Assembly: GCA_003152075.1 (NCBI GenBank)
Contig: PLZG01000020.1
Span: forward strand, 1-50,458
Direction: 5' to 3'
Length of the DNA stretch: 50,458 nt
Origin: a candidate division FCPU426 bacterium
GTDB taxonomy: Bacteria > Oederibacteriota > Muellerivitia > Muellerivitales > Muellerivitaceae
Shown piece after piece: positions 11,866-44,433 of this stretch (its first letter is position 1; each line of letters opens with the position of its first letter). A model generated the notes under the pieces. It was not told the DNA's origin and did no database searches. It worked only from the letters and a program-made list of their open reading frames with translations. Both the position numbers and the translations under genes were made by a program.

Positions 11866-11937
11866 GTTTGGAGGGACAAATAGTTTGAGGATTTGAAAGG
11901 GGAGGGGGAGGGAGGGGGAGTAGAATTAGTCGGGTTT
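11866..11937. repeat. 72-bp G-rich direct repeat, copy 1 (upstream of caspase gene)
   Basis: It matches 14632-14703 over 72 bp with about 6 differences and no gaps. The core is TAGTTTGAGGATTTGAAAG, then four G-runs separated by single A bases, then a TAGAATTAGTCGGGTTT end. The G-runs satisfy the G-quadruplex pattern. It ends about 37 bp before the caspase ATG, so it probably carries regulatory information for that gene. Confidence 0.85.
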
Positions 11938-11974
11938 CGTGAGAAGAATTAATTTTATTTCGAGGGAAACAATT

Positions 11975-13765
11975 ATGAATCGGTGTGCGGTTGTGATCGG
12001 AGTGAACAAAACCGGAAATTTGCCAGTGCTCGGGGGGGCAGTTTCTGGAGCGGAGCAGTTCGCAGATTGGGCTAAGGGGCAGGATATTGAAGTGTCTTTG
12101 CTGACGGATAAAAACGGCAAAAAGGTCACCTTGGGTGAAATCAAAAAAGTGATCAAAGCATTTTCCGAAACAAATTCTTTCTCGCAAATGATTGTTTTCT
12201 TTTCCGGCCACGGAATTTTAACGGCGCCAAATTGTGAGCTTTGGCTTTTGTCCGGCGCCCCCGACGATCCGGATGAGGCGGTAAATGTTGTGGGATCTAT
12301 CGCTCTCGCCAGGAATATCGGAATTCCACATGTGGTTGTCATTTCGGATGCCTGCCGGTCCAGGCCGAACGAAACCAAGCTAAGCCAAGTTACGGGAGGT
12401 TTAATATTCCCGAACGAATCCCCCAAAACGCCGCGGCCAGCCTTGGATGTGTTTTACGCGACCTTGCCTGGTAATCCAGCCTCGGAAGTATCGTCCAAGG
12501 AAGCCGTGGATAATTATCGCGGAATTTTCACCGAGTGCATGCTGAAGGGGCTCAAGGGGAAGGTGCCGAAAGTAATTGTTCCCGTCTCCGAAAGCGGCAA
12601 GCCATCAAATAAGTCGAAGCAAACTTGGGTTGTTCCGTCCCGGGAAATGAAAGAGTACCTTGAGGATGAAGTTCCGGATTCGGCTTCCCAAGTCGACATC
12701 AAGCTTCAACAAAACCCCGATATCCGGGTTGAGTCCAGCCTCCCAGCATTTCTTGCGGAAGTTGCCCCGCCACCGGGTCCGTCTTCGAAGCCCCCAAGGC
12801 CACCTATTCAACCGGATTCATTTGATATTCGCCCCGGTTCCTTAAAGGGAAAGAAAGGTTTTGGGGGTATGGGGGCCGGACTGAATATTCGGGAGCCGAT
12901 AAACCGGATTGCTCGGCCTGAAAAAGCACGCAATATATCGCAAAGTCAGGATTTTAATGATTCCGTTGAAAGGCTTTCGCAAGTGCGGGGCCGGGAGAGT
13001 TTCGAAACTCAGACCGGTTTTACCGTAGTAGGGGAAAAGGTCGCGAAAGTCGCCGTTAAGTTTGAAGGTTACGATCTTTTCAATGAATTTGAGGCGGATC
13101 AAATTCGAGTCAAACAAAATCCGGACCTAAGTTTCCCGCGGTCCCTGCTTTTGAAATTCCGCAACGGTTCCGTGATTCCACTCGCAATTTTGCCGGGGTT
13201 CATCGGAACTGTGGTGGTGGAAGAGGGCCAAGTGGTCAACGTTATGTATTTTCCCAGTCGTAATAACCCGAGATACATCGAATATGAGGGTTATAGGACA
13301 GAAGTTGAGAGGAGGCGAGCTTACGCGGCAGTCGCGTCTAGAAATGGATTATTTCAATTGAAAGATGACGCGACCGCGATTGAAGCGGCAAATTATCTCC
13401 GCAACATGAAAAGTTTCGATCCCACCTTCGGACTTTATGCCGCATATAGTTACGCTCAGGCGGGTGCGATTGAGGAAATAGAATCGGTTTTCGAATACAT
13501 GAGCCAGGAACGGGAACCGATAATTTTTGACGTCGGAATGCTGGCCCGAAAAATAATGGACCACATACCGAGTATAAATCAGCGTTTTGCGCCTTTTTGT
13601 CCGGTTTTGACCCAGGGTTGGGCACTGTTAGATGCTTATCGGGTCAATCTTCTCATCGAAGTGCAGGGAGCGGGTCGCCACCTGAAACCCGGGCTTTGGA
13701 CCACATTTGAGGAGGATTCGGTGAATGAACTTTGGGATAAGGTTGTTAAGGGAGACATCGAATGA
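11975..13765 (+). CDS. Caspase-like (peptidase C14) protease with C-terminal extension
   Basis: A 596-residue protein. The ATG at 11975 is chosen because GAGGGA lies about 9 nt upstream; a GTG at 11939 would overlap the 72-bp repeat. Residues 1-230 have the caspase fold signature: MNRCAVVIGV at the start, the catalytic His in FFSGHG (His79) and the catalytic Cys in VISDACRS (Cys127). A Pro-rich linker follows (about 265-285), then a Gly-rich stretch and a long C-terminal region I do not recognise, with helices near 470-550. No membrane segment is seen. The stop overlaps the start of the hydrolase gene by 4 nt, so the two are co-translated. Bacterial caspase-like proteases commonly act in conflict or cell-death systems by cleaving a partner; the neighbour is the obvious candidate. 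That role is inference. Confidence 0.88.
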   Translation: MNRCAVVIGVNKTGNLPVLGGAVSGAEQFADWAKGQDIEVSLLTDKNGKKVTLGEIKKVIKAFSETNSFSQMIVFFSGHGILTAPNCELWLLSGAPDDPDEAVNVVGSIALARNIGIPHVVVISDACRSRPNETKLSQVTGGLIFPNESPKTPRPALDVFYATLPGNPASEVSSKEAVDNYRGIFTECMLKGLKGKVPKVIVPVSESGKPSNKSKQTWVVPSREMKEYLEDEVPDSASQVDIKLQQNPDIRVESSLPAFLAEVAPPPGPSSKPPRPPIQPDSFDIRPGSLKGKKGFGGMGAGLNIREPINRIARPEKARNISQSQDFNDSVERLSQVRGRESFETQTGFTVVGEKVAKVAVKFEGYDLFNEFEADQIRVKQNPDLSFPRSLLLKFRNGSVIPLAILPGFIGTVVVEEGQVVNVMYFPSRNNPRYIEYEGYRTEVERRRAYAAVASRNGLFQLKDDATAIEAANYLRNMKSFDPTFGLYAAYSYAQAGAIEEIESVFEYMSQEREPIIFDVGMLARKIMDHIPSINQRFAPFCPVLTQGWALLDAYRVNLLIEVQGAGRHLKPGLWTTFEEDSVNELWDKVVKGDIE

Positions 13766-14631: not shown

Positions 14632-14703
14632 GTTTGGAGGCCGAAATAGTTTGAGGATTTGAAATGGGAGGGGGAGGGAGGGGGTGTAGAATTGGTCGGG
14701 TTT
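14632..14703. repeat. 72-bp G-rich direct repeat, copy 2 (upstream of AT-rich membrane gene)
   Basis: The second copy of 11866-11937, in the same orientation. It starts 13 bp after the hydrolase stop and ends 99 bp before the next gene. The four G-runs are kept. The two copies bracket the caspase/hydrolase pair exactly, which could be a cassette boundary or a shared upstream control element. Confidence 0.85.
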
Positions 14704-15490: not shown

Positions 15491-15700
15491 GGGATTGGTT
15501 CTTGAGTATGCATACCGAATCCCCTTGCCCTCCCGCGATCCGTTTCCAATTCCTTATTTGGGAATTGGCACAATCAAAACCCGCCTTCATCTTGTGGATT
15601 CACCAACTGCTCAAAACGGTTGGTACTAAGTGCCTGTGTTCAGGCACATCTAATCACCAGTTACTCGGAAAGCTCGCAACAGGTGGCAGGGCAGATGCCC
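15491..15700. repeat. Tandem hairpin array I
   Basis: Six stem-loops lie nearly end to end: 15491-15522 (GGGATT...AATCCC, bulged); 15546-15568 (CCAATTCC/GGAATTGG, perfect, followed by CACA); 15603-15623 (CCAACTG/CGGTTGG); 15630-15647 (GTGCCTG/CAGGCAC, perfect); 15655-15685 (CACCAGTT/AACAGGTG, one mismatch); and 15689-15700 (GGGCA/TGCCC). The rest of 15478-15798 has no gene. Confidence 0.75.
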
Positions 15701-15798: not shown

Positions 15799-16221
15799 TC
15801 AGGGGAGGGGCTCGCCTAAGGGCTTGCCCTTTTGGGCGTCTTCGATATCCGCCTTGGGGATGCGGATGAGGTCCAAGAAAACGCTGCTCAAGGTGACCTT
15901 GACCTGGGTTTCTACCGCGTGGGGGTAATAACGCCCGAACTCCTCCTTGAACTGCAATAGTTTTTCCGGGAGGGAAAGCACGGCCACGTCCCGGTTCACT
16001 GGGTTAAGGATTGGCAGGGGAAGTTCGTCGGACACCCGGGTGACCTGGAGGAGGCCAATGCCCGAGAAGAAATAGATAGAAGGCTTGCACCTCGACTGGC
16101 ATCCATTCCTTTTGGAATGGATAGGATAAAACCTTGTGTCTCGCCTTGTGGGCTCGACACAGGACGGGCGGGTTAGACGCCCTTCCTGGTCTCGGCACAG
16201 GGTTGCCTTACAGGTTGACAT
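15799..16221 (-). pseudogene. Open frame with plausible C-terminal coding part, 5' end lost in hairpin repeats
   Basis: The frame is open for 140 codons. Only the distal part, about 15799-16070, looks protein-like (VTRVSDELPLPILNPVNRD, EKLLQFKEEFGRYYP). The N-terminal third is simply the translation of the hairpin array at 16101-16207, and no ribosome site supports the ATG at 16221. The likeliest reading is a gene whose 5' end was replaced by repeats. The family is not recognised. It diverges from the Fic gene and its putative start overlaps the Fic promoter. Confidence 0.35.
16101..16207. repeat. Tandem hairpin array Ib, just upstream of the Fic gene
   Basis: Stem-loops: 16101-16122 (ATCCATTCC/GGAATGGAT, perfect, TTTT loop); 16135-16161 (TGTGTC/GACACA around a 15-nt insert TCGCCTTGTGGGCTC); 16162-16186 (GGACGGGC/GCCCTTCC, one mismatch); and smaller pairings to 16207. 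The second hairpin belongs to the family also seen at 17339 and 17719. The ACAGGACGGGC...GCCCTT unit recurs at 21073. Confidence 0.75.
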
Positions 16222-16249: not shown

Positions 16250-17269
16250 ATGGCTTACGAACCCCTTTTTACCATTACCCCTCACCTTTTAAAGCTCCTG
16301 GAGGAGATTGCCACTTTCCGGGAGAAGATCCTGGCTGCCACCATCCAGGTCCCTTGGATTCCAACCCTTCAAAAAGACGCCCGGGCCAGGAACAGCCATA
16401 GCTCCACGGCCATTGAGGGGAATCCCCTCACCTTGGCCGAAGTCCGTTTGCTGGGGGAAGGAAAGGAACTTTCCAGCTCCACTGAACGTGCCACGCGGGA
16501 AATCCTGAATTACTTCGCGGGGTTACGTTACGTCGAAAAAAACGCGAATAAAAAGATCATTACCCATGAGGACCTTTTCGAGCTCCATTCCCTCATTTCC
16601 ACTGGCGTCATGGATCAGGGGAAAGCGGGGAAGTACCGGAATTTTCAAGTGCGTGTGGGAAACCATCTTCCACCCATGGCCATCCAGGTGAGCGGCCTTA
16701 TGCGGGAACTTTTGGATTGGTGGAATAATAAAGCCCCATCCTGGCCCCCGGTCATTACTTCCGGGATTCTCCATTACCGTTTTGAGGCGATCCACCCCTT
16801 TGGGGACGGTAACGGCCGGACGGGCAGGATGCTGGCCCTCTGGGAACTGTACCGGCGGGGTTTCGACACCCATCATATTTTTTCGGTGGACGAGGTTTTT
16901 TGGGAAAAGAGGCCCTTGTATTACCAAAATCTCGATCTCGTCCCGAAGAATGGGGAAGACCTGACCGGTTGGCTGGAATATACCACCGAAGCCGTTCACC
17001 TGACCCTTGAGCGGGTTTGGGGAAGAATACAACGCTTGAAGGGCGAGAAGGGGTCCGCGCAAATTGTCCTGACGCCAAAACAGGAACGACTCCTCGGGCT
17101 GCTTCGGGACCAACAAAGCTTATCACCCCAGGAAATATGGAAAGCTTTGGGAGTAACGAGGCAGGGAGCTTCGAAACTTCTGAATCCCTTGATCAAGGCC
17201 GGATTAATCAAGCGGATAGGTTCTAAAAAGACGGGTAAATATATTTTTACCGATTCTGAGAAAAGCTGA
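16250..17269 (+). CDS. Fic family protein (class II, self-inhibited) with C-terminal winged helix
   Basis: A 339-residue protein. The Fic catalytic loop HPFGDGNGRTGR starts at His182. The N-terminal helix carries the inhibitory motif S-x-x-x-E-G (Ser52, Glu56 in SSTAIEGN), the class II arrangement in which the Glu blocks productive ATP binding. Residues 275-335 form a winged-helix DNA-binding-like domain (LSPQEIWKALGVTRQGASKL). Fic enzymes transfer AMP to Ser/Thr/Tyr of target proteins; the winged helix suggests a role in regulation or self-regulation. No antitoxin gene is adjacent. The gene lies alone between hairpin arrays. Confidence 0.93.
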   Translation: MAYEPLFTITPHLLKLLEEIATFREKILAATIQVPWIPTLQKDARARNSHSSTAIEGNPLTLAEVRLLGEGKELSSSTERATREILNYFAGLRYVEKNANKKIITHEDLFELHSLISTGVMDQGKAGKYRNFQVRVGNHLPPMAIQVSGLMRELLDWWNNKAPSWPPVITSGILHYRFEAIHPFGDGNGRTGRMLALWELYRRGFDTHHIFSVDEVFWEKRPLYYQNLDLVPKNGEDLTGWLEYTTEAVHLTLERVWGRIQRLKGEKGSAQIVLTPKQERLLGLLRDQQSLSPQEIWKALGVTRQGASKLLNPLIKAGLIKRIGSKKTGKYIFTDSEKS

Positions 17270-17281
17270 ATCTTTGACGCG

Positions 17282-17480
17282 CGTGGCTCCCCACGGGCAC
17301 CAATTTCATTTTCCGGTGAAATTGGCACACCCAAGGCTTGCCACTCGGCTTGAGGCCTCGTGGCAGGGGCCAAAGCCCGTGGCACCGCCGAAGTCCAGGC
17401 TTCGCCTGCCCAGCCTTTGGCTGGGCCGCTTCTTTTCCCCGGGCATAGCCGGGGAAGAGAGGCGGCGACTTTCAAGCCGC
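17282..17480. repeat. Tandem hairpin array II, including a predicted multi-branched fold
   Basis: Stem-loops: 17282-17295 (CGTGG/CCACG); 17300-17325 (CCAATTTCA/TGAAATTGG, perfect, followed by CACA); 17339-17365 (TGCCAC/GTGGCA around TCGGCTTGAGGCCTC); 17396-17408 (CAGGC/GCCTG); 17409-17425 (CCCAGCC/GGCTGGG); 17425-17466 (18-bp stem with two G-T pairs, loop GCATAG); 17462-17480 (GCGGC/GCCGC). CCACGGGC (17291-17298) pairs with GCCCGTGG (17375-17382), enclosing the second and third hairpins in a branched structure. Confidence 0.8.
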
Positions 17481-17548: not shown

Positions 17549-18048
17549 ATGGCCGTCATCAAGGTATCGGACAAGCTGCCTATCGATTTCAAATACAACC
17601 TCAAGGTCTATTTCAGCTTCCTGAAGAAATACAAAGGGGCACCAATTCCTTATACCTCTGGAATTAGCACACCCACCCATCGGGCTAAAGCCCGAGGGCG
17701 ATAAAAATCATCGAGGCTTTTGTCTCGGCTTGAGGCCTCGACAAAGGGGCCTGCGTATTACTGGTTTTGCTGGTCTTCGCCCTGAGCACCCTGGACCTGG
17801 CTTTTAATTACACCTTCAGCCGCATCGTGGACAGGGCCACGCTTTTCACCCAGGGAAAAATGGCACTGGAGGCCTTTAACCAATTCCTCCTTCTCGCCTT
17901 CGCGGCCCTTTTGGCCATACCCGCCATACGGGGGATGGGGCGGTGGGTTTACATGGGCAGCATCAACCGGCTGGAAAGCCGACTGATCGCCGACATCAAG
18001 CGCTACTTCTTCGACCACTTGCTTTCCCTTTCCCACGGGTTCCACAGC
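17549..18048 (+). pseudogene. Broken 5' copy of the downstream ABC exporter gene
   Basis: It matches 19205-19594 closely, apart from a 110-bp insertion at 17641-17750. The start region (ATGGCCGTCATCAAGG) and residues up to FFDHLLSLSHGFHS are kept. The insertion introduces a stop and shifts the frame (110 is not a multiple of 3). Homology stops abruptly at 18048, where unrelated sequence leading to VapBC begins. The product would lack most of the membrane domain and the whole ATPase. Confidence 0.9.
17641..17750. mobile_element. 110-bp hairpin element inserted in the ABC pseudogene
   Basis: The intact paralogue reads AATACAAAGGGGCTTGCG. The broken copy has ACAAAGGGGC at both edges of the insertion (17631-17640 and 17741-17750), like a 10-bp target duplication. 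Inside are three hairpins: 17642-17667 (CCAATTCC/GGAATTAG, followed by CACA), 17681-17694 (CGGGCT/AGCCCG) and 17719-17745 (TTTGTC/GACAAA around TCGGCTTGAGGCCTC). The last right arm lies within the duplicated 10-mer and its preceding G. Confidence 0.8.
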
Positions 18049-18084
18049 GTCAAAAAAAATCCTAATCCGGCCCCGTCATATTCT

Positions 18085-18144: not shown

Positions 18145-18393
18145 ATGTCCATCCTGCATGTTCGAAACGTTCCCGAGCCCCTCTACCGGGAAATCAAGAA
18201 ATTGGCCGAGGCGGAAAAACGCTCCTTCGGCTCCGAGGTACTGCATTTGCTGGGCCACGCGGTTCAGGAAGAGCAGGCGGTATACGGGCGGAAAAATATT
18301 TTGAAAGATATTGAACGACGCCGCAAAAAGATAAAGTTGAAACCCGGGACTCCCGACAGCACCACCCTCCTGCGGGAAGACCGGGACAGGTGA
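18145..18393 (+). CDS. Antitoxin, FitA/VapB-type ribbon-helix-helix
   Basis: An 82-residue protein with a strong GGAGG site (AAGGAGGTTTTAT before the ATG). The N-terminus MSILHVRNVPEPLYREIKKL fits the strand and first helix of a ribbon-helix-helix DNA-binding domain. The charged, flexible C-terminus would wrap the toxin. It overlaps the PIN gene by 4 nt (GTGA), as in most VapBC operons. It binds and neutralises the toxin and probably represses at the palindrome 18085-18101. The pair lies between the broken and intact copies of the ABC exporter gene. Confidence 0.88.
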   Translation: MSILHVRNVPEPLYREIKKLAEAEKRSFGSEVLHLLGHAVQEEQAVYGRKNILKDIERRRKKIKLKPGTPDSTTLLREDRDR

Positions 18394-18839
18394 TAACGGA
18401 ACCTGGGTGCTGGGTGGTCGACGCCAGCGTGGGTATCAAGCTTTTTGTCCCGGAAACACACTCGGAGCAAGCCGATGCTTTATTCAATCCCTTAGAAGGC
18501 GCCCCCCCGGATTTGGTTGTCCCGGATTTGTTTTACGCCGAATGCGCGAACATTCTTTGGAAATATGTCCGGCGTTTTGGCTACCCCCTTTCGGAAGCCG
18601 GAAAAAACATGGCCGCCTTGAAAGAAATGAAATTGAGCACCGTACCTTCCGCCTTGCTCGTGGAAAAAGCGTTGGAATTGGCTGTGCGCCTTGAAGTAAC
18701 GGCTTACGACGCCTGCTACCTGGCCTTGGCCGAGGACCTGCGGGCCACGCTGGTGACGGCCGATGAAAAACTGTTGAAGCGGCTCAAGGGGCGGCGTATC
18801 CAGGCGGTTTGGATCGGTGATTTTTCCAAGAAGGATTGA
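18390..18839 (+). CDS. VapC-type toxin, PIN-domain ribonuclease
   Basis: A 149-residue PIN protein starting at a GTG that overlaps the antitoxin stop. Acidic active-site residues are visible: Asp11 in VVDASVGIK, Glu in YAECANI, Asp in YDACYLALA and Asp in VTADEKLL. This fits a Mg-dependent endoribonuclease, usually cutting tRNA or rRNA and halting translation when freed from its antitoxin. The length is normal and no residue is missing, so it should be active. A short T-rich, AT-rich stretch follows the stop. Confidence 0.92.
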   Translation: MITEPGCWVVDASVGIKLFVPETHSEQADALFNPLEGAPPDLVVPDLFYAECANILWKYVRRFGYPLSEAGKNMAALKEMKLSTVPSALLVEKALELAVRLEVTAYDACYLALAEDLRATLVTADEKLLKRLKGRRIQAVWIGDFSKKD

Positions 18840-19204: not shown

Positions 19205-20998
19205 ATGACCGGCATCAAGGTATCGGACAAGCTGCCCATCGACTTTAAATACAACCTCAAGGTCTATTTCGGCTTCCTGAAGAAATACAAAGGGGCTTGC
19301 GTATTGCTGGTTTTGCTGGTCTTCGCCCTGAGCACACTGGACCTGGCCTTTAATTACACCTTCAGCCGCATCGTGGACAGGGCCACGCTTTTCACCCAGG
19401 GAAAAATGGCCCTGGAGGCCTTTGACCAATTCCTCCTTCTCGCCTTCGCGGCTCTTTTGGCCATACCCGCCATACGGGGGCTGGGGCGGTGGCTTTACCT
19501 GGGCAGCATCAACCGGCTGGAAAGCCGCCTGATCGCGGACATTAAGCGCTACTTCTTCGACCACCTGCTTTCCCTTTCCCACGGCTTCCACAGCTCGCAC
19601 AAGACCGGGTCCCTCATTTCCCGCCTGGCCCGGGGGTCGGGGTCGGTGGAAACGATGACGGACGTAATCGTCTTTAATTTCGCGCCGGTGTTGTTTCAAT
19701 TGACCCTGATGGGCGCCTCCATCTTTTATTTCACCCTGCCGGTGGGGCTTTCGGTGCTGGCCACCGTGGTGGTTTACGTGGGTTATTCCATCCTGGTCAC
19801 CCAGCAACAGCAGAAGGCCAACGCCCTTTACAACAACATGTCGGACCTGGAAAAGGCCAACATCAGCGACGTGTTCACCAATATCGAATCCATCAAGTAT
19901 TTCGCCAAGGAAGGGGACGTGAGGAACCGGTTCTTCGAGCTGAGCGAGAAGACCCGGCGCTACCAACTGGGTTTTTGGGACCAGTTCAAGCGCCTGGAAG
20001 GGGGGCAGATTTTCATTTCCGGGCTGGGCGCCTTTTTCGTGGTTTACCTTTCGCTTAAAAGCCTCACCGCCGGGCAGATGACCATCGGCACCTTCGTGCT
20101 GGTTTTCACCAACTACGGCACTTTGCTAATGCCCTTGTCCGGCTTCATCATGGGGGTGCGCAACATGTACCGGGCCATCGCGGATTTCGAGGACCTTTTT
20201 CAATACGGCAAGCTGGAAAACGAGATCAAGGACCGGCCGGGCGCCAAGGCGTTTTCCGTTCACCGGGGGGCTATTGAGTTTAAGAACGTGGGCTTCACCT
20301 ACCGCAAAAAGCCCGTGCTGTCGGGTTTCACGCTGAAGGTGCCGCCCCACAAGAGGCTGGCGGTGGTGGGGCCCTCAGGGGCCGGGAAAACCACTTTGAT
20401 CCGCCTGGTGTACAGGCTTTACGACCTGGAGAAGGGGGAGATAAGCCTGGACGGAGCCGATATCGCGGGGGTCACCCAGGCTTCCTTACGGGAAGCCCTC
20501 AGCATGGTGCCGCAGGAATGCATCCTCTTCGACGACAGCATTTACAACAACATCGCCTTCTCCAACCCGGGGGCATCCCGCCGGCAGGTTTTCGCGGCCA
20601 TCCGCTACGCCCAGCTGGGGAAGTTTATCGAGGGACTGCCGGAAAAGGAAAACACCATCGTGGGGGAAAGGGGGGTGAAGCTATCCGGCGGGGAAAAGCA
20701 GAGGGTTTCCATCGCCCGGGCGCTTTTGGCGGACAAGAAGATACTCATATTGGACGAGGCCACTTCCTCGCTGGATTCGCAGACCGAGCACGAGATCCAG
20801 GAGGGCTTGAAGGGCCTGATGAAGGGAAGGACCTGCATCCTCATCGCCCACCGGCTTTCCACCATCATGAGCGCGGACATTATCGCGGTGCTGGACAAGG
20901 GGAAGGTGGTTCAGCAGGGTAGCCACCGGGAGTTGATAAGGAAACCGGGACTGTATAGGAAACTTTGGAACTTGCAAAAGGGCGGGTACATCGAGTGA
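19205..20998 (+). CDS. ABC exporter, Atm1/HMT1-like (fused membrane and ATPase domains)
   Basis: A 597-residue half-transporter. The membrane domain spans residues 1-330 with about six helices. NIESIKYFAKEG matches the conserved loop of Atm1-type exporters (usually NYETVKYF). The ATPase has Walker A GPSGAGKTTL (from about residue 389), signature LSGGEKQRVS, Walker B ILILDEATSSLD and the H-loop AHRLST, so it should be active as a homodimer. Atm1-type proteins export glutathione-linked metals or sulfur compounds; the substrate here is unknown. Its first 390 bp are duplicated at 17549-18048. A hairpin array follows its stop. Confidence 0.92.
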   Translation: MTGIKVSDKLPIDFKYNLKVYFGFLKKYKGACVLLVLLVFALSTLDLAFNYTFSRIVDRATLFTQGKMALEAFDQFLLLAFAALLAIPAIRGLGRWLYLGSINRLESRLIADIKRYFFDHLLSLSHGFHSSHKTGSLISRLARGSGSVETMTDVIVFNFAPVLFQLTLMGASIFYFTLPVGLSVLATVVVYVGYSILVTQQQQKANALYNNMSDLEKANISDVFTNIESIKYFAKEGDVRNRFFELSEKTRRYQLGFWDQFKRLEGGQIFISGLGAFFVVYLSLKSLTAGQMTIGTFVLVFTNYGTLLMPLSGFIMGVRNMYRAIADFEDLFQYGKLENEIKDRPGAKAFSVHRGAIEFKNVGFTYRKKPVLSGFTLKVPPHKRLAVVGPSGAGKTTLIRLVYRLYDLEKGEISLDGADIAGVTQASLREALSMVPQECILFDDSIYNNIAFSNPGASRRQVFAAIRYAQLGKFIEGLPEKENTIVGERGVKLSGGEKQRVSIARALLADKKILILDEATSSLDSQTEHEIQEGLKGLMKGRTCILIAHRLSTIMSADIIAVLDKGKVVQQGSHRELIRKPGLYRKLWNLQKGGYIE

Positions 20999-21054: not shown

Positions 21055-21298
21055 GGGGATTAAAACCCCGTCACAGGACGGGCACGGTAGACGCCCTTAC
21101 TGGTCAGGCTGTTCAGAGTGAGAGGTAACGGTTAAAGGGTATCCGTTACGTGTACTAATTGCTCTTTGCAATTAGCACAAAGCGCCTGTTGCCAGGTGCA
21201 TCGCCGCAGTCGATGTTTTGAGACAAGGGCTAGGTGTACCAATCGTTTTATGCGATTGGCACAAGCAAATCTCAACCGATACCTTGTGGGTATCGGTT
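21055..21298. repeat. Tandem hairpin array III
   Basis: Stem-loops: 21055-21069 (GGGG/CCCC); 21078-21096 (GGGC/GCCC, within the ACAGGACGGGC unit shared with 16159); 21125-21149 (GTAACGG/CCGTTAC); 21155-21175 (CTAATTGC/GCAATTAG, then CACA); 21182-21199 (GCGCCTG/CAGGTGC); 21199-21215 (CATCG/CGATG); 21239-21259 (CCAATCG/CGATTGG, then CACA); 21274-21298 (AACCGATACC/GGTATCGGTT, perfect 10 bp). The last one overlaps the stop codon of the BON gene and could terminate it. Confidence 0.8.
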
Positions 21299-21551
21299 AG
21301 CTGTAATTCTCAAACTCCCCATCGCTGACACGGGCTACCCGGATATTATTCGAAACCTCGTGTACCCCGGCGATGCTCTGGACCAGGGTCATGATCTCCC
21401 GCTTGGCCTCGAACTCGTTGACGGTGCCGGACAAGTGAACCACGCCGTCCTTGATTTGGACGTGCATATGCTCGCCCATTTGCCGGATACGGTTGATAAT
21501 CAGGGCTTCCAGCTCAACCTCTTTTGGGTTTGAATTTATTTCATTAGCCAT
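21297..21551 (-). CDS. BON-domain protein
   Basis: An 84-residue single BON domain: GVVHLSGTVNEFEAKREIM followed by IAGVHEVSNNIRV. GGAGG precedes the ATG. BON domains bind membranes or polymers and are common in osmotic-shock proteins such as OsmY. No signal peptide is visible, so this one may be cytosolic, or its partner may carry the localisation. It is the first of a run of small stress-type genes on the minus strand. Confidence 0.88.
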   Translation of the reverse strand: MANEINSNPKEVELEALIINRIRQMGEHMHVQIKDGVVHLSGTVNEFEAKREIMTLVQSIAGVHEVSNNIRVARVSDGEFENYS

Positions 21552-27652: not shown

Positions 27653-29221
27653 TTAACCCTTAGAGGACATCACGATCAGCTTCCCCGTTTGAATCACCCT
27701 TTCCCCTTGTTGAACGACATAAAAATAAACCCCGCTCACGGCCAGAATTCCCTTTTGGTTCCGACCGTCCCATTGGACCATTCCGTTGATTTCCTGGATT
27801 CTTCCCACCAATTCCCCCGACAGGGTGAAAAAAGAAACCGTTCCGCCCGGGGGCACACAGCCGACTTTAAGAAGCCCTCCCACGGCGTAAGCGGGATTAA
27901 AGGGATCGGGCCAAACCCGCGGTTCGCAAAAGGGCGTGGAAGTGGCCGTCGGGGTGGAGGTAATGGTCGGGGTAGGGGTAATGGTGGCTGTATAAGTTTT
28001 CGTGGGTGTTGGCGTGGCCGTTAGGGTGAAAGTTTTGGTGGGAGTGAAAGTGACCGTGGGCGTGGAGCTGGGAGTTGGGGTGGGAGTCAGCGTGGCGACG
28101 ACCAAAAGGGCCGTGACTTTTCGTATCCGGTTATTATAGTCATCGGCGATATAAAGATTTCCATACCCGTCCTTGCCCAGGGCGGAGGGAGCGTTCAAAT
28201 CCGCCAAGGTGGCGGGCCCACCGTCCCCCGAGTAAAAGGCGATCCCGGTTCCAGCCACGGTCGTGATGACGCCGGTGGAACCGTCAACTTTGCGGACCCG
28301 GTTATTAAGTGTGTCGGCGATAAAAAGGTTTCCCGCCAGGTCGACGATGAGCCCGCCCGGGTTATTCAGGCTCGCGGAAGAAGCCGGCCCGCCGTCTCCC
28401 CCGAATCCCGGCGCGCCGTTTCCCGCGAAGGTGGTCATGATCCCCGTGTGCGAGTCCACCCGCCGGATACGGTTGTTGCCGGTATCGGCGATAAATAGGG
28501 TTCCTTGGGCGTCAACCGCCACTCCTAAAGGGAACTGAATCTCACCCATGGTGGCCAATCCGCCGTCGCCCGAATAGCCGTAAGTGCCGTTTCCCGCGAC
28601 GGAAGTGATGATTCCGGTGACCACGTTCACCAGCCGAATACGGTTGTTGTAGGTATCGACGATATAAATATTATTGGAGGCGTCGAAGGCGACTCCGCAG
28701 GGGTAGCGGAGGCTTGAGGAAGCCGCCTGCCCTCCATCACCGGCAAAAGCCGCGACGCCATTGCCCGCGAAAGTTTTCACGATACCAGAAACCCCGTCGA
28801 CTTTCCGGAGCCGGGTATTGCCCATGTCGGCGATGAATAGGTTGCCCTGTGAATCCACGTTCACCCCGTCGATATCGTTAAATTGGGCTGAGGTCGCGGG
28901 GCCGCCATCCCCCGAGAAACCAAATATCCCATTGCCTGCCACTGTCGAAATAACCTGGGTGGCCGCGTCCACCCGCCTAATCCGCTCGTTCACTGAATCA
29001 ACGATGTAAAGGTTTCCGGGTGCATCGGTGGCCATTCCGTCAACATCGGATAACATGGCCGAGAGGGCGGGCCCGCCATCGCCGGAAAAACCCGGGGTTC
29101 CGTTTCCGGCCACGGTTGAAATGGTCTGGCTGAAAGCCAAGGACGATCCCATTCCGCAGGCGAATAGAAATGGAAGAAAATTTTGCCCTGGGCGTAAAAG
29201 GAGATTGGGGGAGGAATTCAA
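27653..29221 (-). CDS. Secreted NHL-repeat protein with Thr/Pro linker and C-terminal Ig/FlgD-like module
   Basis: 522 residues. After a signal-like N-terminus there are six NHL units of the form ISTVAGNGTPGFSGDGGPA ... GNLYIVDSVNERIRRVD, which should form a beta-propeller. Next comes a Thr/Pro-rich linker (about residues 375-430) made of TPTxT repeats, then a C-terminal module starting at CEPRVWPDPFNPAYAVGG that resembles the FlgD-Ig or sorting-signal domains of secreted proteins. It is probably on the cell surface. No ribosome site precedes the ATG at 29221. The TATCA...TGATA sites at 29236-29248 and 29286-29298 lie upstream. Confidence 0.9.
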   Translation of the reverse strand: MNSSPNLLLRPGQNFLPFLFACGMGSSLAFSQTISTVAGNGTPGFSGDGGPALSAMLSDVDGMATDAPGNLYIVDSVNERIRRVDAATQVISTVAGNGIFGFSGDGGPATSAQFNDIDGVNVDSQGNLFIADMGNTRLRKVDGVSGIVKTFAGNGVAAFAGDGGQAASSSLRYPCGVAFDASNNIYIVDTYNNRIRLVNVVTGIITSVAGNGTYGYSGDGGLATMGEIQFPLGVAVDAQGTLFIADTGNNRIRRVDSHTGIMTTFAGNGAPGFGGDGGPASSASLNNPGGLIVDLAGNLFIADTLNNRVRKVDGSTGVITTVAGTGIAFYSGDGGPATLADLNAPSALGKDGYGNLYIADDYNNRIRKVTALLVVATLTPTPTPSSTPTVTFTPTKTFTLTATPTPTKTYTATITPTPTITSTPTATSTPFCEPRVWPDPFNPAYAVGGLLKVGCVPPGGTVSFFTLSGELVGRIQEINGMVQWDGRNQKGILAVSGVYFYVVQQGERVIQTGKLIVMSSKG

Positions 29222-38364: not shown

Positions 38365-41300
38365 ATGACCACCCAAACCCTCCCCAAGACCGAATCATCC
38401 TCTGAGCCCGACGCGCTCGATGTCATCCAATTGCTTAAAACCATGATGGCCCTGAAAAAGGGTGACTTTTCCGTGCGCCTCCCGATTGAATGGACCGGCA
38501 CGGCCGGCAAAATCGCCGATACTTTTAACACGGTGGTTGAGATGAACGAGCACATGGCGTTTGAACTGGAACGCTTGCGTGACGGGGTGGCCAAAAAAGG
38601 CAAGATCAACCAGCGGGCCCCCCTGGGGGAATTTAACGGGTCCTGGTCCCGGATGTTGGAATCGGTGAATACCCTGATCGATGAACTGGTGCGTCCCACC
38701 AGCGAGATGTCCCGGGTCATCGGCGCGGTGGCTAAGGGAGACCTTTCCCAAGAAGCGGCATTGGAAGTGGGCGGTCGCCCCCTGGAGGGGGAATTTCTCC
38801 AAACGGGCCATACCATCAACACCATGGTGGACCGGTTGCGGACATTCACCTCGGAAGTCACCCGGGTGGCGCGTGAGGTGGGAACCGAAGGCAAACTGGG
38901 CGGGCAGGCCATTGTTCCCGGGGTCGCGGGCACCTGGAAGGACCTGGCCGACAACGTCAATTTCATGGCCAGCAACCTGACGAGCCAAGTGCGTAATATC
39001 GCCGATGTCACCCTCTCGGTAGCCCAGGGGGATCTTTCCAAAAAAATCACCGCCGACGTGCGCGGTGAGGTCCTTGTCCTCAAAGAAACCGTCAACACCA
39101 TGGTGGACCAGCTGCGGTCCTTCGCCTCGGAGGTCACCCGGGTGGCGCGCGAGGTGGGAACGGAAGGCAAACTGGGCGGGCAAGCCCAGGTTGCGGGAGC
39201 CGCCGGAACCTGGAAAGAACTCACCGACAACGTCAACTTCATGGCCAGCAACCTGACAAACCAAGTGCGTAACATCGCTGATATCACCACCGCCGTGGCC
39301 AACGGGGATTTTTCCAAAAAGATCACAGCCGATGTGAGCGGCGAATTCCTCCAGTTGAAAGAAAAAGTCAACACCATGGTGGATCAGCTGAGCCTTTTCA
39401 CCTCCGAAGTCACGCGCGTAGCCCGGGAAGTCGGAACCGAAGGAAAACTGAGCGGCCAGGCCATCGCGCCGGGAGCGGCCGGAACATGGAAAGAACTCAC
39501 CGATAACGTCAACTTCATGTCCTCGAACCTAACCAGCCAGGTTCGGAATATCGCCGACATCACCACCGCCGTGGCCAACGGCGATTTTTCCAAAAAAATT
39601 ACCGCCGACGTGCGGGGCGAGTTCCTCCAGTTGAAAGAAAAAGTAAACATGATGGTGGACCAGTTGGGCCTTTTCACCTCGGAAGTCACCCGGGTGGCGC
39701 GCGAGGTTGGTACCGAAGGTAAGCTGGGCAGCCAGGCCATCGCGCCGGGCGCGGCGGGCACCTGGAAAGAACTGACCGACAACGTCAACTTCATGTCCTC
39801 AAATTTGACCAGCCAGGTTCGTAACATTGCCGACATCACCACCGCCGTGGCCAACGGCGATTTCTCCAAGAAGATCACCGCCGACGTGCGGGGTGAGTTT
39901 CTCCAGTTGAAAGAGAAAGTCAACACCATGGTGGACCAGTTGAGCCTTTTCACCTCCGAAGTCACGCGGGTAGCGCGCGAAGTCGGTGTGGAAGGAAAGC
40001 TGAGCGGTCAAGCCATCGCGCCGGGCGCGGCGGGTACCTGGAAAGAACTCACCGATAACGTCAACTTCATGTCCTCGAATTTAACCAGTCAGGTCCGCAA
40101 TATCGCCGACATCACCACGGCCGTTGCCAACGGCGACCTGTCAACGAAGATCACCGCCGATGTGCGGGGTGAGTTCCTTCAGTTGAAGGAAAAAGTCAAC
40201 ACCATGGTGGACCAACTGCGATTCTTCACCTCTGAAGTCACGCGTGTGGCCCGCGAGGTGGGTGTGGAAGGAAAGCTGGGCGGCCAAGCCATCGCGCCGG
40301 GGGCCGCGGGCACCTGGAAAGAACTCACCGACAACGTCAACCAGCTGGCGGCTAATTTGACCACCCAAGTGCGGTCCATTTCCGAGGTGGTGAGCGCCGT
40401 GGCCAGCGGCGACCTGACCCGGTCCATTCATATGGACGCCCGGGGGGAGGTGGAGACATTAAAAGATACCATCAACCAGATGATCGCGAACCTGCGCGGC
40501 ACCACCTTGAAAAACTCCGAACAGGTTTGGTTAAAGACCAACTTAGCCCGTTTTACCCTCATGTTACAGGGACAGCGGGACCTGCCCACGGTGGCCCAGG
40601 CCATCCTCTCCGAGCTTAACCAGGTGGTTTCGGCCCAGCACAGCGCCTTTTATATCGCCGATTCCAAGGAATCGGGCGAGACCCGGTTAAAACTTCTTTC
40701 CGGCTTTGCCTACCTTCCACGCCCCGAACTCCCGAGGGAATTCGGTTTGGGGGAGGGCCTGGTGGGGCAGTGCGCCAAGGAAAAGACCATGATTTTATTG
40801 AAAAACGTGCCGGGAAATTACATCCGTATCAATTCGGGTTTGGGGGACGCGAGCCCCATGAACCTGGTGGTATTGCCCGCACTTTTCGAGGGCGAGATCA
40901 AGGGGGTCCTGGAGTTGGCATCCTTTGAAGTGTTTACCCCATCCCATCTGGCCTTCCTGGAACAGCTGATGGAAAGTATCGGTATTGTCATCAACACCTT
41001 AGAAGCCAATTTTCGCACCGAAACCCTCCTGAAAGATTTGCAAAGCCAGCAGGAGGAATTACAAAATTCCAACCAGAAGTTGGAGGAGAAAGCCGACCAG
41101 TTGGCCCTGACCTCCAAGTACAAGACCGAGTTTCTTTCCAACATGTCCCATGAATTGCGCACGCCCTTGAACAGCATGCTGATCCTTTCCCATCAATTGG
41201 CCGAGGATTCCAAGGGTCTCACTCCCAAACAGGTGGAATACGCCCGCACTATCCATGCCTCGGGCGGCGACTTGCTGCTTTTAATCAACGACATCCTGGA

Positions 41301-42456
41301 CCTAGCCAAGGTGGAGTCCGGCACCATGACGCTCGATGTGGTTAGCGTGCTCTTCACCGAGATGCGGGACCGTTTGGACCGTTTGCTTCGCCACGTGGCG
41401 GAGGGCCGGGGGTTAAAATTCAGCATCGAATTAGACCCCAAACTGGGGAATGAGATTCACACCGATTCCAAGCGGCTGGAGCAGATTTTGAGAAATCTCC
41501 TGGCCAACGCCTTTAAGTTCACGCAAAAAGGACAGGTTCACCTCAAGGTGGCCCCGGCGAGCAGCGGCTGGAGCATTGACCATCCTGTTTTAAGTAAAGC
41601 CAAGGAAGTCATCGCCTTTTCCGTCATCGATACGGGCATCGGTATTCCGGTGAACAAGCAAAAAATCATCTTTGAGGCCTTCCAGCAGGCCGAAAGCGGA
41701 ACCAGCCGAAAATACGGCGGAACGGGCTTGGGTCTTTCGATCAGCCGCGACCTCTCCATTCTTTTGGGCGGGCAATTGACTTTGGCCAACAGCGAGCCAG
41801 GGCGTGGCAGTACTTTTGTCCTCTACGTTCCCAAAAACTATGTCCCCGATAAGGTCGTCACGGCGTTCATAGCTCCCGCTACCGAGCCGGAATTGTTGGT
41901 GGCCGCGAATTCAATGCGCCACCCGGATCGAAGGGAAAATGATGGGATCCTCGCGTTCCCGGCCAAAGAGGAATCGGGCAACGGGAAAAAACACGCCGCG
42001 ACCGCCATGCTTCCGGAGATCAAACTCAAAAATAATATTGAGCCGGCAAAACCCAATAACGCGATTCTGATCGGCCGAAAGGTTCTGGTGGTGGACGACG
42101 ACATTCGCAATATCTTCGCCATGACCAGCCTGCTGGAGCACCAGCAAATGCAGGTTTTTTCCGCCGAGAGCGGCCGTGAGGCCCTTGAACAACTGGAAAA
42201 GACCCCGGATATGGACATCGTACTGATGGACATCATGATGCCTGAAATGGATGGCTATGACACCATGCAGGCCATCCGCAAAAAAGAATCCTTCAAAAAC
42301 CTGAGCATCGTAGCCTTGACCGCCAAGGCCATGAAAGGTGACAGGGAAAAATGTATCGAGTCCGGCGCCTCGGATTACATCACCAAACCAGTGGATACGG
42401 AGCAACTACTCGCCCTCATGGGGACATGGTTGAAAAGAACCGGAGGTAAGGTGTGA
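38365..42456 (+). CDS. Cytosolic multi-HAMP hybrid histidine kinase (HAMPs-GAF-HisKA-HATPase-REC)
   Basis: 1363 residues from the ATG at 38365; the frame is open from 38230 but that part lies over the promoter. No membrane helix is seen. A HAMP-rich region (about residues 90-710) contains six tandem 92-residue units of the form [20 protein letters not shown] ... TMVDQL. A GAF domain follows (about 735-880), then HisKA with [12 protein letters not shown] (His929), HATPase with [17 protein letters not shown] and GGTGLGLS, and a receiver with [12 protein letters not shown] (Asp1289). The layout resembles fungal group III osmosensing kinases and their bacterial relatives. Three receiver genes overlap downstream, so it probably heads a phosphorelay. 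Confidence 0.93.
38845..40500. repeat. Six tandem 276-bp units inside the kinase gene
   Basis: Units start at 38845, 39121, 39397, 39673, 39949 and 40225 with TTCACCTCGGAAGTCAC or close variants. Each encodes a 92-residue HAMP-pair unit. The inner units are very similar at DNA level, so recombination could change their number. Confidence 0.9.
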
Positions 42457-43058
42457 TGGAAAAAGAAACGCCCGTCAACATTTTAATGGTAGATGACCAG
42501 CCGGCCAACCTCCTGGCCCTGGAGGCCGTCTTAGAAAGCCTGGGCCAGAACCTGGTACGGGCGAATTCGGGGGAAGAAGCTTTAAGGCAGCTGATCCAAA
42601 AGGATTTCGCCGTCATCCTTCTTGACGTGCTGATGCCGGGAATGAACGGTTTTGAAACGGCGGCCCTGATCCGCGAGCGTGATCGCAGCCGCCACATGCC
42701 GATCATTTTTTTAACGGCTGGCGGAAAGACCGAGACGGAGATGTTCCAGGGTTATGCCGTGGGGGCCATCGACTACCTGTTGAAACCCATCCGCCCGGCC
42801 ATCCTCCGGTCCAAGGTTTTGGTCTTGATGGACCTTTACCGCAAGACGGAGGAAGTGGGACGGTTGAATGAGGAGCTTCACCGAAGGACCGGAGAATTTG
42901 ACGCCCTGAATTTGACCTTCAAAAGCGAAAAGGAAAGCCGCAAACACTTGGAAGAAAAATTACGTTTGTCCGAAGAATTTGTTAAAAACCTAAAGGCCGA
43001 CTTGGAGAAAAGAGCCCTCGGGCCCGCCATGGCGGCCGAAGAAAGCCGATCCAAATGA
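42456..43058 (+). CDS. Response regulator: receiver domain plus C-terminal coiled coil (1 of 3)
   Basis: About 200 residues. The receiver has VNILMVDDQPANLLALE, phosphoacceptor Asp57 in VILLDVLMPGMNGF, and Lys in DYLLKPI. A coiled coil (RKTEEVGRLNEELHRR) follows in place of a DNA-binding or enzyme output. GGAGG lies upstream. The ATG overlaps the kinase stop as TGATG (a GTG 3 nt earlier is possible). Without an output domain it may relay phosphate or act by protein contact. Confidence 0.88.
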   Translation: MEKETPVNILMVDDQPANLLALEAVLESLGQNLVRANSGEEALRQLIQKDFAVILLDVLMPGMNGFETAALIRERDRSRHMPIIFLTAGGKTETEMFQGYAVGAIDYLLKPIRPAILRSKVLVLMDLYRKTEEVGRLNEELHRRTGEFDALNLTFKSEKESRKHLEEKLRLSEEFVKNLKADLEKRALGPAMAAEESRSK

Positions 43059-43756
43059 CCCAACCCGGCGAGGAGATGGAAGAAAAACTGAGTAGGCAGA
43101 CTGTGAAAGAGAATGAAATGCCCGTCAATATTCTTTTGGTGGATGACCAGCCAAACAACCTATTGGCTCTTGAGTCCATATTGGACATCCTGGGCCAGAA
43201 CCTGGTACGCGCGAATTCGGGGGAAGAGGCCTTAAGGCTACTCATTCAAAAAGATTTCGCCGTCGTCCTCCTGGACGTGTTGATGCCGGGGATGGATGGT
43301 TTTGAAACCGCTGGATGGATCCGCCACCGTGATCGCAGCCGTCATACACCCATCATTTTCCTGACGGGAGGTGGAAAGACCGAAACCGAGATGTTCCAGG
43401 GTTATGCCGCTGGGGCCATCGACTACCTGTTGAAGCCTTTCGTCCCGGAGGTGCTAAGGTCCAAGGTCGCGATATTGGTGGATCTTTACCGCAGGACAGA
43501 GGAACTGCGCAGCATGAACGAGGAACTCAAACTCAAGGCAAAAGAATTGGTGATTCTGAACATGAAGTTGGAAATCGAAAAGGGAAACCGAGATCGAACC
43601 GTGAAGAAATTGTTCAGGTCAGAAGAGAGCCTCAAAAACCTCAAAGTCCACCCGGAGCCGGTTGCCGTCGGTCAAACGGCGATTAAGAAAACAAAGACTA
43701 AACAGACAAAGCTCAATGAGAACCAGGCGAAAAACGTTATAAAGGGCGGAATGTGA
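43055..43756 (+). CDS. Response regulator: receiver plus coiled coil (2 of 3)
   Basis: 233 residues. It has a 22-residue extra N-terminus before NILLVDDQPNNLLALES. The phosphoacceptor is Asp74 in VVLLDVLMPGMDGF. The coiled coil LRSMNEELKLKAKELVILNM is followed by a basic tail. The start overlaps the previous gene (ATGA) and the end overlaps the next. It is a clear paralogue of its neighbours, sharing LVRANSGEEALR and KDFAV. Confidence 0.88.
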   Translation: MTQPGEEMEEKLSRQTVKENEMPVNILLVDDQPNNLLALESILDILGQNLVRANSGEEALRLLIQKDFAVVLLDVLMPGMDGFETAGWIRHRDRSRHTPIIFLTGGGKTETEMFQGYAAGAIDYLLKPFVPEVLRSKVAILVDLYRRTEELRSMNEELKLKAKELVILNMKLEIEKGNRDRTVKKLFRSEESLKNLKVHPEPVAVGQTAIKKTKTKQTKLNENQAKNVIKGGM

Positions 43757-44433
43757 TGGAAAATAAAACAGCCTTCAATATTCTCATTGTGGATGATGAG
43801 CCGGCCAATCTGCTGGCCCTGGAGGCCGTATTGGAAAGCCTGGGCCAAAACCTGGTGCGGGCGAATTCCGGGGAAGAGGCTTTGAGGCATCTCATTCAAA
43901 AGGATTTCGCCGTCATCCTCCTGGACGTGAGGATGCCGGGGATGAACGGGTTTGAAACCGCGGGCCTGATTCGCGAGCGAGGCCGGACCCGCCACACCCC
44001 CATTATTTTCATGACGGCAGGAGGCAAAACCGTGGCGGAGATGTTCCAAGGTTACGCCTTGGGAGCCATTGACTACCTGCTGAAGCCCTTCGTTCCGGCG
44101 GTGCTACGGTCAAAGGTCTCGGTATTGATTGACCTTCACCGGAAGAGGGAGGAAGTAAACCACCTGAATGAAGAACTTAGCCGAAAGGCCAAAGAACTGG
44201 TAATGTTAAACCTGAAGTTAGAACTCGAAAATGGGAAGCACGAAAGGACCGTGGAAGAATTACGCCGGTCTGAAAAGAGTTTAAAAAATCTCAACGTGAA
44301 CCTTGAGGCAATGGTCGCCGATCGTACCGCGGCCTTGGAAGAACGCGGCCGCCAACTGACCCGGACCAACGAGGAGCTGGCGAAAAGCGCTAAAAAGGAG
44401 TCGGAAGCAGAGACTCCCTTACCTCTCCATTAA
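43756..44433 (+). CDS. Response regulator: receiver plus coiled coil (3 of 3)
   Basis: About 225 residues with NILIVDDEPANLLALEAVL, Asp57 in VILLDVRMPGMNGF, and DYLLKPF. The coiled coil (REEVNHLNEELSRKAKELV, then LNVNLEAMVADRTAALEERG) is longer than in the other two and looks like the dimerising linker that precedes a kinase or GGDEF module, but the protein stops there. The start overlaps the previous stop as TGATG. Confidence 0.88.
   Translation: MENKTAFNILIVDDEPANLLALEAVLESLGQNLVRANSGEEALRHLIQKDFAVILLDVRMPGMNGFETAGLIRERGRTRHTPIIFMTAGGKTVAEMFQGYALGAIDYLLKPFVPAVLRSKVSVLIDLHRKREEVNHLNEELSRKAKELVMLNLKLELENGKHERTVEELRRSEKSLKNLNVNLEAMVADRTAALEERGRQLTRTNEELAKSAKKESEAETPLPLH

Follow-up and report, generated by a model that had tools for sequence, protein, structure and literature searches.

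The question raised by this locus is how a short hairpin element came to sit in one of two exporter gene copies, between two occurrences of the same ten bases, and whether the letters of its stem were taken from the sequence that it entered. The window, that is the whole stretch of DNA that was analysed, is 50,458 nucleotides long and belongs to a bacterium of the candidate phylum FCPU426.

A derived insertion in a duplicated exporter gene

Within the window a broken, truncated duplicate of an ABC exporter gene (17549-18058, plus strand) can be aligned to an intact exporter gene from position 19205 onward (19205-20998). A single gap, exactly 110 bp long, interrupts the alignment; 6 of the 92 positions on its left and 17 of the 300 on its right are mismatched, differences which indicate that the insertion came after a fairly recent duplication. 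The ten bases ACAAAGGGGC are found in the broken copy at 17631-17640 and again at 17741-17750, and occur once in the intact gene, at 19287-19296 on the plus strand, where they mark the empty site. An earlier note had described an insert of 110 bp bounded on both sides by a sequence that is single in the intact gene, and this is confirmed by the alignment of the paralogues. The intact gene encodes a complete protein of 597 aa with ABC_membrane and ABC_tran domains, homologues of which are found as complete ORFs, 72-78% identical, in three related genomes (G002, G003 and G004), with the G004 orthologue, the sole one checked at the nucleotide level, being uninterrupted at the insertion site. With an empty site in the intact paralogue and with intact orthologues, that of G004 without the insert, the 110-bp insertion is, as judged from these comparisons, the derived state. 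The opposite reading, in which an ancestral 110 bp was deleted stepwise from the intact gene, is ruled out by the same orthologues and the G004 site, is further opposed by the presence of the same repeat at dozens of unrelated sites, and has a negligible probability.

The truncated exporter is preceded by a gene for a Fic protein (16250-17269) and directly followed by a VapBC-like antitoxin/PIN pair (18145-18839). Elsewhere in the window there is a gene for a caspase-domain (Peptidase_C14) protein at 11939-13765, which together with its neighbour is enclosed by a 72-bp repeat (92%) lying at 11866-11937 and 14632-14703, as well as tandem 171-nt units at 28218-29006, tandem 276-nt units in a 1408-aa ORF (38818-40497) and three repeats at 650-nt spacing across small ORFs (42445-44044).

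Architecture of the insert

The insert (17641-17750, plus strand, as are all of its parts), delimited by the single gap against the intact paralogue and with a covariance model match to its 3' part at 17696-17750, is a long form of a repeat that carries a third, central hairpin. Hairpin A, CCAATTCC ... GGAATTAG (17642-17667), is seen in the fold and corresponds to helix 1 of the family, in which 92-94% of cells are paired. It is followed by a CACACCC box and an extra central module (17668-17716) with its own hairpin at 17676-17698, and then by hairpin B (17717-17747), identified by the core search and by covariation, which has the form CTTTTGT - CTCGGCTTGAGGCCTCG - ACAAAGG with variable outer arms around a conserved core, YTC-NNC-TTGNG-GNN-TCR. 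The left copy of ACAAAGGGGC (17631-17640, plus strand), being in the same place as in the intact paralogue, is the target sequence as it stood before insertion, and the right copy (17741-17750) consists of the 3' arm of hairpin B together with AGGGGC, the family-wide 3' end seen in the right-end profile of 149 copies. The TTTTGT and ACAAA on either side of CTCGGCTTGAGGCCTCG do pair to form the hairpin that the earlier note had named, with its 3' arm supplied by the right repeat as was described there.

A search of the genome with the core of hairpin B gave 17 matches at no more than 2 mismatches and 0 in a reversed-pattern control. The genome holds about three other sequences related to the central module, at C111:82289-82335 (98% identical), C111:79544-79584 (88%) and C33:23472-23511 (75%), and in the first of these (L088, L149) hairpins A and B differ completely from those of the insert. 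A module shared at 98% between copies with different hairpins does not readily come from slow drift, and can come from module exchange between copies; this mosaic is the strongest point left in favour of an event by which stems are altered abruptly.

A repeat family confined to one bacterial family

The 17-nt core CTCGGCTTGAGGCCTCG served as the query that led to further copies of the family, and a covariance model was built on 15 copies. The family has a common plan, with a variable hairpin A of about 8 bp, the CACAnCCAAnnCTTG box, hairpin B and CAGGGGC as its end, and hairpin B itself runs from a variable arm through YTC NNC TTGNG GNN TCR to the paired arm; the elements are about 70-110 bp long and protein-free. 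With the covariance model at least 64 copies are found in this genome at E<=1e-3, a figure that is a floor with 150 of the 1072 first-look candidates scored, and every one of the 8 genomes of the taxonomic family carries copies, whereas none of the 51 genomes from outside it does. In a pattern scan of named genomes the sole match was a candidate division FCPU426 assembly, in a pattern scan of a viral collection no viral contig matched, and the Rfam covariance models gave no match at gathering score to the window stretch and ten loci. The repeat family was previously unnamed and, within an uncultured phylum, is limited to a single taxonomic family.

At least five other copies, on the plus strand, lie in the window, with E-values from the covariance model. 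One is 3' of the Fic gene (17295-17370, E=6.6e-17), one is at 15541-15610 (E=6e-7), two are found within 21150-21304 (21150-21199 and 21234-21304, E=3e-4 and 4e-8), and a copy of a TGGCATCC subfamily at 16097-16167 (E=1.1e-13) is apparently nested in another hairpin B. In single cases (L126 and the copy at 17295) the two flanks form an outer closing stem, and across copies they have no clear excess of complementarity.

At L126 (13528-13896) three near-identical copies stand at an exact 148-bp spacing, each inside a larger palindrome, CCAGATGATGT ... ACATCATCTGG. At three loci, each in a different genome of the family (L107, L056 and L130), copies adjoin the 5' end of an apparent tRNA gene, GGGGTAGCTCAGCTGGTAGAGC; these copies are probably orthologous, with different stems, and the proteins encoded upstream are similar. 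At L127 (G002 C26; 2643-2714 and 3759-3829) a copy is found at or near the start or end of each of two tandem tyrosine recombinase genes, and a tandem recombinase pair is also present at G000 C97:110447-112226.

As a raw count, about 32 of 145 copies lie in reading frames that stay open on each side for 210 nt or more. Most of the in-frame copies on the plus strand are in one phase, giving a peptide like ADSxxESAQPNxxPRxEASAQV, and several are inside recognisable conserved proteins, such as a UvrD-type helicase (L117); in G004 a copy lies within queC (L116). The G005 loci L133, L135, L137, L138 and L145 have many copies in open frames with an ADSxxESAQPN-like linker peptide, some of them in paralogous genes.

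Covariation in the stems

It had been proposed that the stems vary yet remain paired in all copies. The variation is upheld, and the pairing is better described as approximate, with 88-89% of cells holding standard pairs. In a hand-made alignment, which leans towards structure as its loops were trimmed by hand, double changes occur in 16 of 19 pairs. Two alignments fitted with the model, one of 73 copies and one of 81, lean towards that model; 88.0% and 88.7% of their pair cells are paired, and double changes occupy 312 and 321 cells where shuffling gives 77 and 82. The covariation score is about 0.6 and falls to about 0.12 once the partner column is shifted by one. Single-mismatch intermediates are common in the stems, as expected from ordinary compensatory drift. 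Since pairing is kept while the letters change, the folded form appears to be selected, and the data suggest that it is the fold itself that matters, either for mobility or as RNA.

Target preference or target-site duplication

The last six bases of the ten-base repeat, AGGGGC, are the 3' end of the whole family, thus the right repeat is not simply a duplication of the target. Over 149 copies the right-end profile is A.82 G.83 G.66 G.53 G.89 C.45, and the left flank has a weak preference for GGY, which resembles the 3' end of the element. The two boundaries were compared over 120 non-tandem copies, with 29 of the 149 left out as their left flank resembles the end of another copy. A match of at least 8 of 10 bases was found in 7 of the 120, against 1.5 expected and a maximum of 5 in 200 permutations, and a match of 10/10 was found in the exporter insert alone (1 against 0.02 in permutations), so that the boundary-aligned repeat at this site is beyond chance. 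Most of these seven copies keep the family's own 3' end on the right, which makes a resembling target a better reading than duplication. The suggestion of the earlier note that the element enters targets resembling its own end (CAGGGGC) is therefore modestly and rather weakly borne out, by the GGY flank and by the excess of 7 over 1.5.

An unlikely alternative is that the repeat moves by ordinary transposition and truly duplicates its target site over a length that varies, 10 bp at the exporter; the resemblance of the ends would then be partly coincidence and older duplications would have decayed. Boundary direct repeats of this kind are found in the insert and, at 10 bp, at C47:2035, for which a DNA search for the empty site gave no homologous empty locus. 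At L117 the sequence GACCGT is found on both sides in place of the family end, beside the ITLMTIHKAKGLEF motif of the UvrD-type helicase gene, and looks like a real target duplication, and L061 may be another such exception, where a 14-bp direct repeat, CTAAAGCGCCTGGC, flanks a copy at 1501-1574 and is itself half of a palindrome. The YPAL repeat of Yersinia likewise makes duplications, of 3-26 bp, at sites near dyad symmetry (PMC2229807). However, the right repeat is the conserved end of the family in most of the seven copies matching at 8 or more bases, the terminal trinucleotides on the left and right agree at rates only a little above those of permutations (0.43/0.53/0.38 against 0.36/0.52/0.31), and in nested copies the CTC motif of the host copy is not duplicated.

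Candidate engines and possible spread without an enzyme

None of the candidate engines that were checked tracks the repeat family. Y1_Tnp has 0 matches in G000, the genome richest in copies, and where Y1 loci of relatives were examined they have no family copy close by. This genome also lacks IS110 families, other carriers lack reverse transcriptase, and the integron integrase TIGR02249 is below cut-off in nine of the nine genomes searched. RAYT/Y1, IS110 and reverse transcriptase, none of which is common to all carriers, are thus rejected as a shared engine, and integron attC sites are rejected with no integrase above cut-off in the nine genomes. A classical MITE is also rejected, as there is no clear excess of outer complementarity and boundary repeats are found in a minority of copies.

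It could be that no dedicated enzyme is involved, with template switching or homology-assisted recombination at short shared sequences (GGGGC, hairpins) spreading the repeat and also making tandem arrays and mosaics. This would fit the tandem units with shared ends at L036, L063, L119 and L126, the 29 of 149 left flanks that resemble the end of another copy, the module mosaic between the exporter insert and C111, and the nesting of copies within hairpin B of others. It fits less well with the insert being a whole element that has the family's ends, and with the many copies that stand alone in genes between flanks that do not match, whilst a conserved box and core that are specific to the element imply recognition; such spread is considered quite improbable.

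Is the variable arm taken from the target?

Two further readings give the variable arm a direct relation to the target. In one, which is very doubtful, the element would find its target by pairing, with the variable 5' arm of hairpin B as a guide and each copy preferentially entering sites that match its own arm and CAGGGGC; if this were true, the diversity of arms would be a diversity of target specificity.

The other, offered by the earlier note as an explanation of varying stems, is that insertion copies the arm from the target. The left flank, being the old target, should then repeat the 3' arm, yet over 149 copies the arm-position identity to the left flank is 0.23/0.32/0.30/0.34 against 0.25/0.28/0.27/0.32 when permuted, which is the level of chance. 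In nested copies the target before insertion is known, as the hairpin B of a second copy holds them in its apical loop, and the number of arm bases that match it is 0/4 in C105, 2/4 in C31:73808, 2/4 in C111:79456 and 4/4 in C69:8401, with no consistent agreement between arm and target. Where two copies agree at more than 90% of positions beyond the arms, their arms are 94-99% identical, many of these pairs being tandem or duplicated, and at 85-90% agreement the arm identity is 0.56, which suggests that arms are inherited yet fast-evolving. In two genomes of one genus a copy lies in umuC before VDCNNFYV, at the same codon, with hairpin B stems that are almost wholly different and still paired. 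From comparison of their flanks these copies are probably orthologous, which would mean that stems change without a new insertion; an alternative reading is that they are independent insertions at the same codon. In addition, C8:6706 carries the same TTTGT/ACAAA arm and has no ACAAAG on its left. The exporter copy itself, the nested copy C69:8401 with GCAC in both target and arm, and the related central module at C111, which has a different arm, would all fit with copying, but against the above observations it is scarcely credible, and the arms are most likely inherited and drifting in situ.

Relation to known palindromic repeats

The closest known kind, as likened by description, is the Rickettsia palindromic element (RPE). 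RPEs are palindromic repeats of about 100 bp without genes of their own, which are found between genes or fused in frame within conserved proteins, and their mechanism of transposition is unexplained (PMC2229807, PMC6649704). The present family is likewise palindromic and without a gene of its own, has in-frame copies in protein genes, and at about 70-110 bp in two hairpins is in keeping with the RPE size of about 100-150 bp. It differs in belonging to another phylum and in its layout, in which a conserved box and core accompany two distinct hairpins. Its stems covary heavily and stay paired, while for RPEs a loss of repeat identity with age has been reported (PMC6649704). The double-hairpin elements of fungal and sponge mitochondria are similar as mobile single or double hairpins, some of them in genes and some in tandem (PMC2800124), but are organellar, and this comparison too is by description.

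REP/RAYT systems resemble the family in having hairpin repeats with no general target duplication. In the style of IS200/IS605 the target resembles the end of the element, as it may do here. The differences are that the family is about 70 bp or more in length, compared with 20-40 bp for REPs (PMC3733652), that its boundary profiles and consensus have no GTAG or CGTC tag, and that the Y1 transposase is absent from G000, with none near copies at the Y1 loci examined. YPAL/RU-2 of Yersinia is also a palindromic repeat with internal inverted repeats, and YPAL targets lie near dyad symmetry, but it is 168 bp long with duplications of 3-26 bp (PMC2229807), whereas the family has no regular duplication. 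Integron attC sites share with the family imperfect hairpins, variable stems and several clusters in one orientation; the consensus here, however, has no attC core sites and no integrase is above cut-off.

A mobile hairpin probably read by its fold

The reading that is preferred, at a probability of about 0.6, is that the insert is a non-autonomous mobile hairpin repeat which is recognised in its folded form, has a loose preference for targets like its own end, and has stems that are both selected and drifting. As what is conserved is structural (core loops, box and 3' end) and pairing is kept, a protein or process that reads the fold is likely, and the presumed mobilising enzyme probably recognises the folded element, perhaps as a single strand. 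Targets would be loosely preferred when they are like the 3' end of the element, with GGC and occasionally the whole of CAGGGGC, and a circle or single strand with its 3' end CAGGGGC joined beside a similar target would give the pattern that is observed. Such a preference may be the reason for the exporter site, and as the exporter happened to contain ACAAAGGGGC, the end of the element and the target would look like a 10-bp duplication after insertion. The stems would keep their pairing by selection on structure, with the letters drifting through compensatory change and no rewriting from the target. There are counterpoints to this reading, in that the ACAA part of the exporter match would be accidental, at about 1 in 256, if the preference covers AGGGGC alone, and in the negative searches for candidate enzymes, the duplication-like ends at L117 and the mosaic of the C111 module.

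The exporter pair offers a clean view of an insertion before and after the event, and together with the nested copies of known target it makes the movement of protein-coding palindromes testable by comparison of strains. The finding adds a selfish family of hairpin DNA, with many copies in frame within proteins, in an uncultured phylum.
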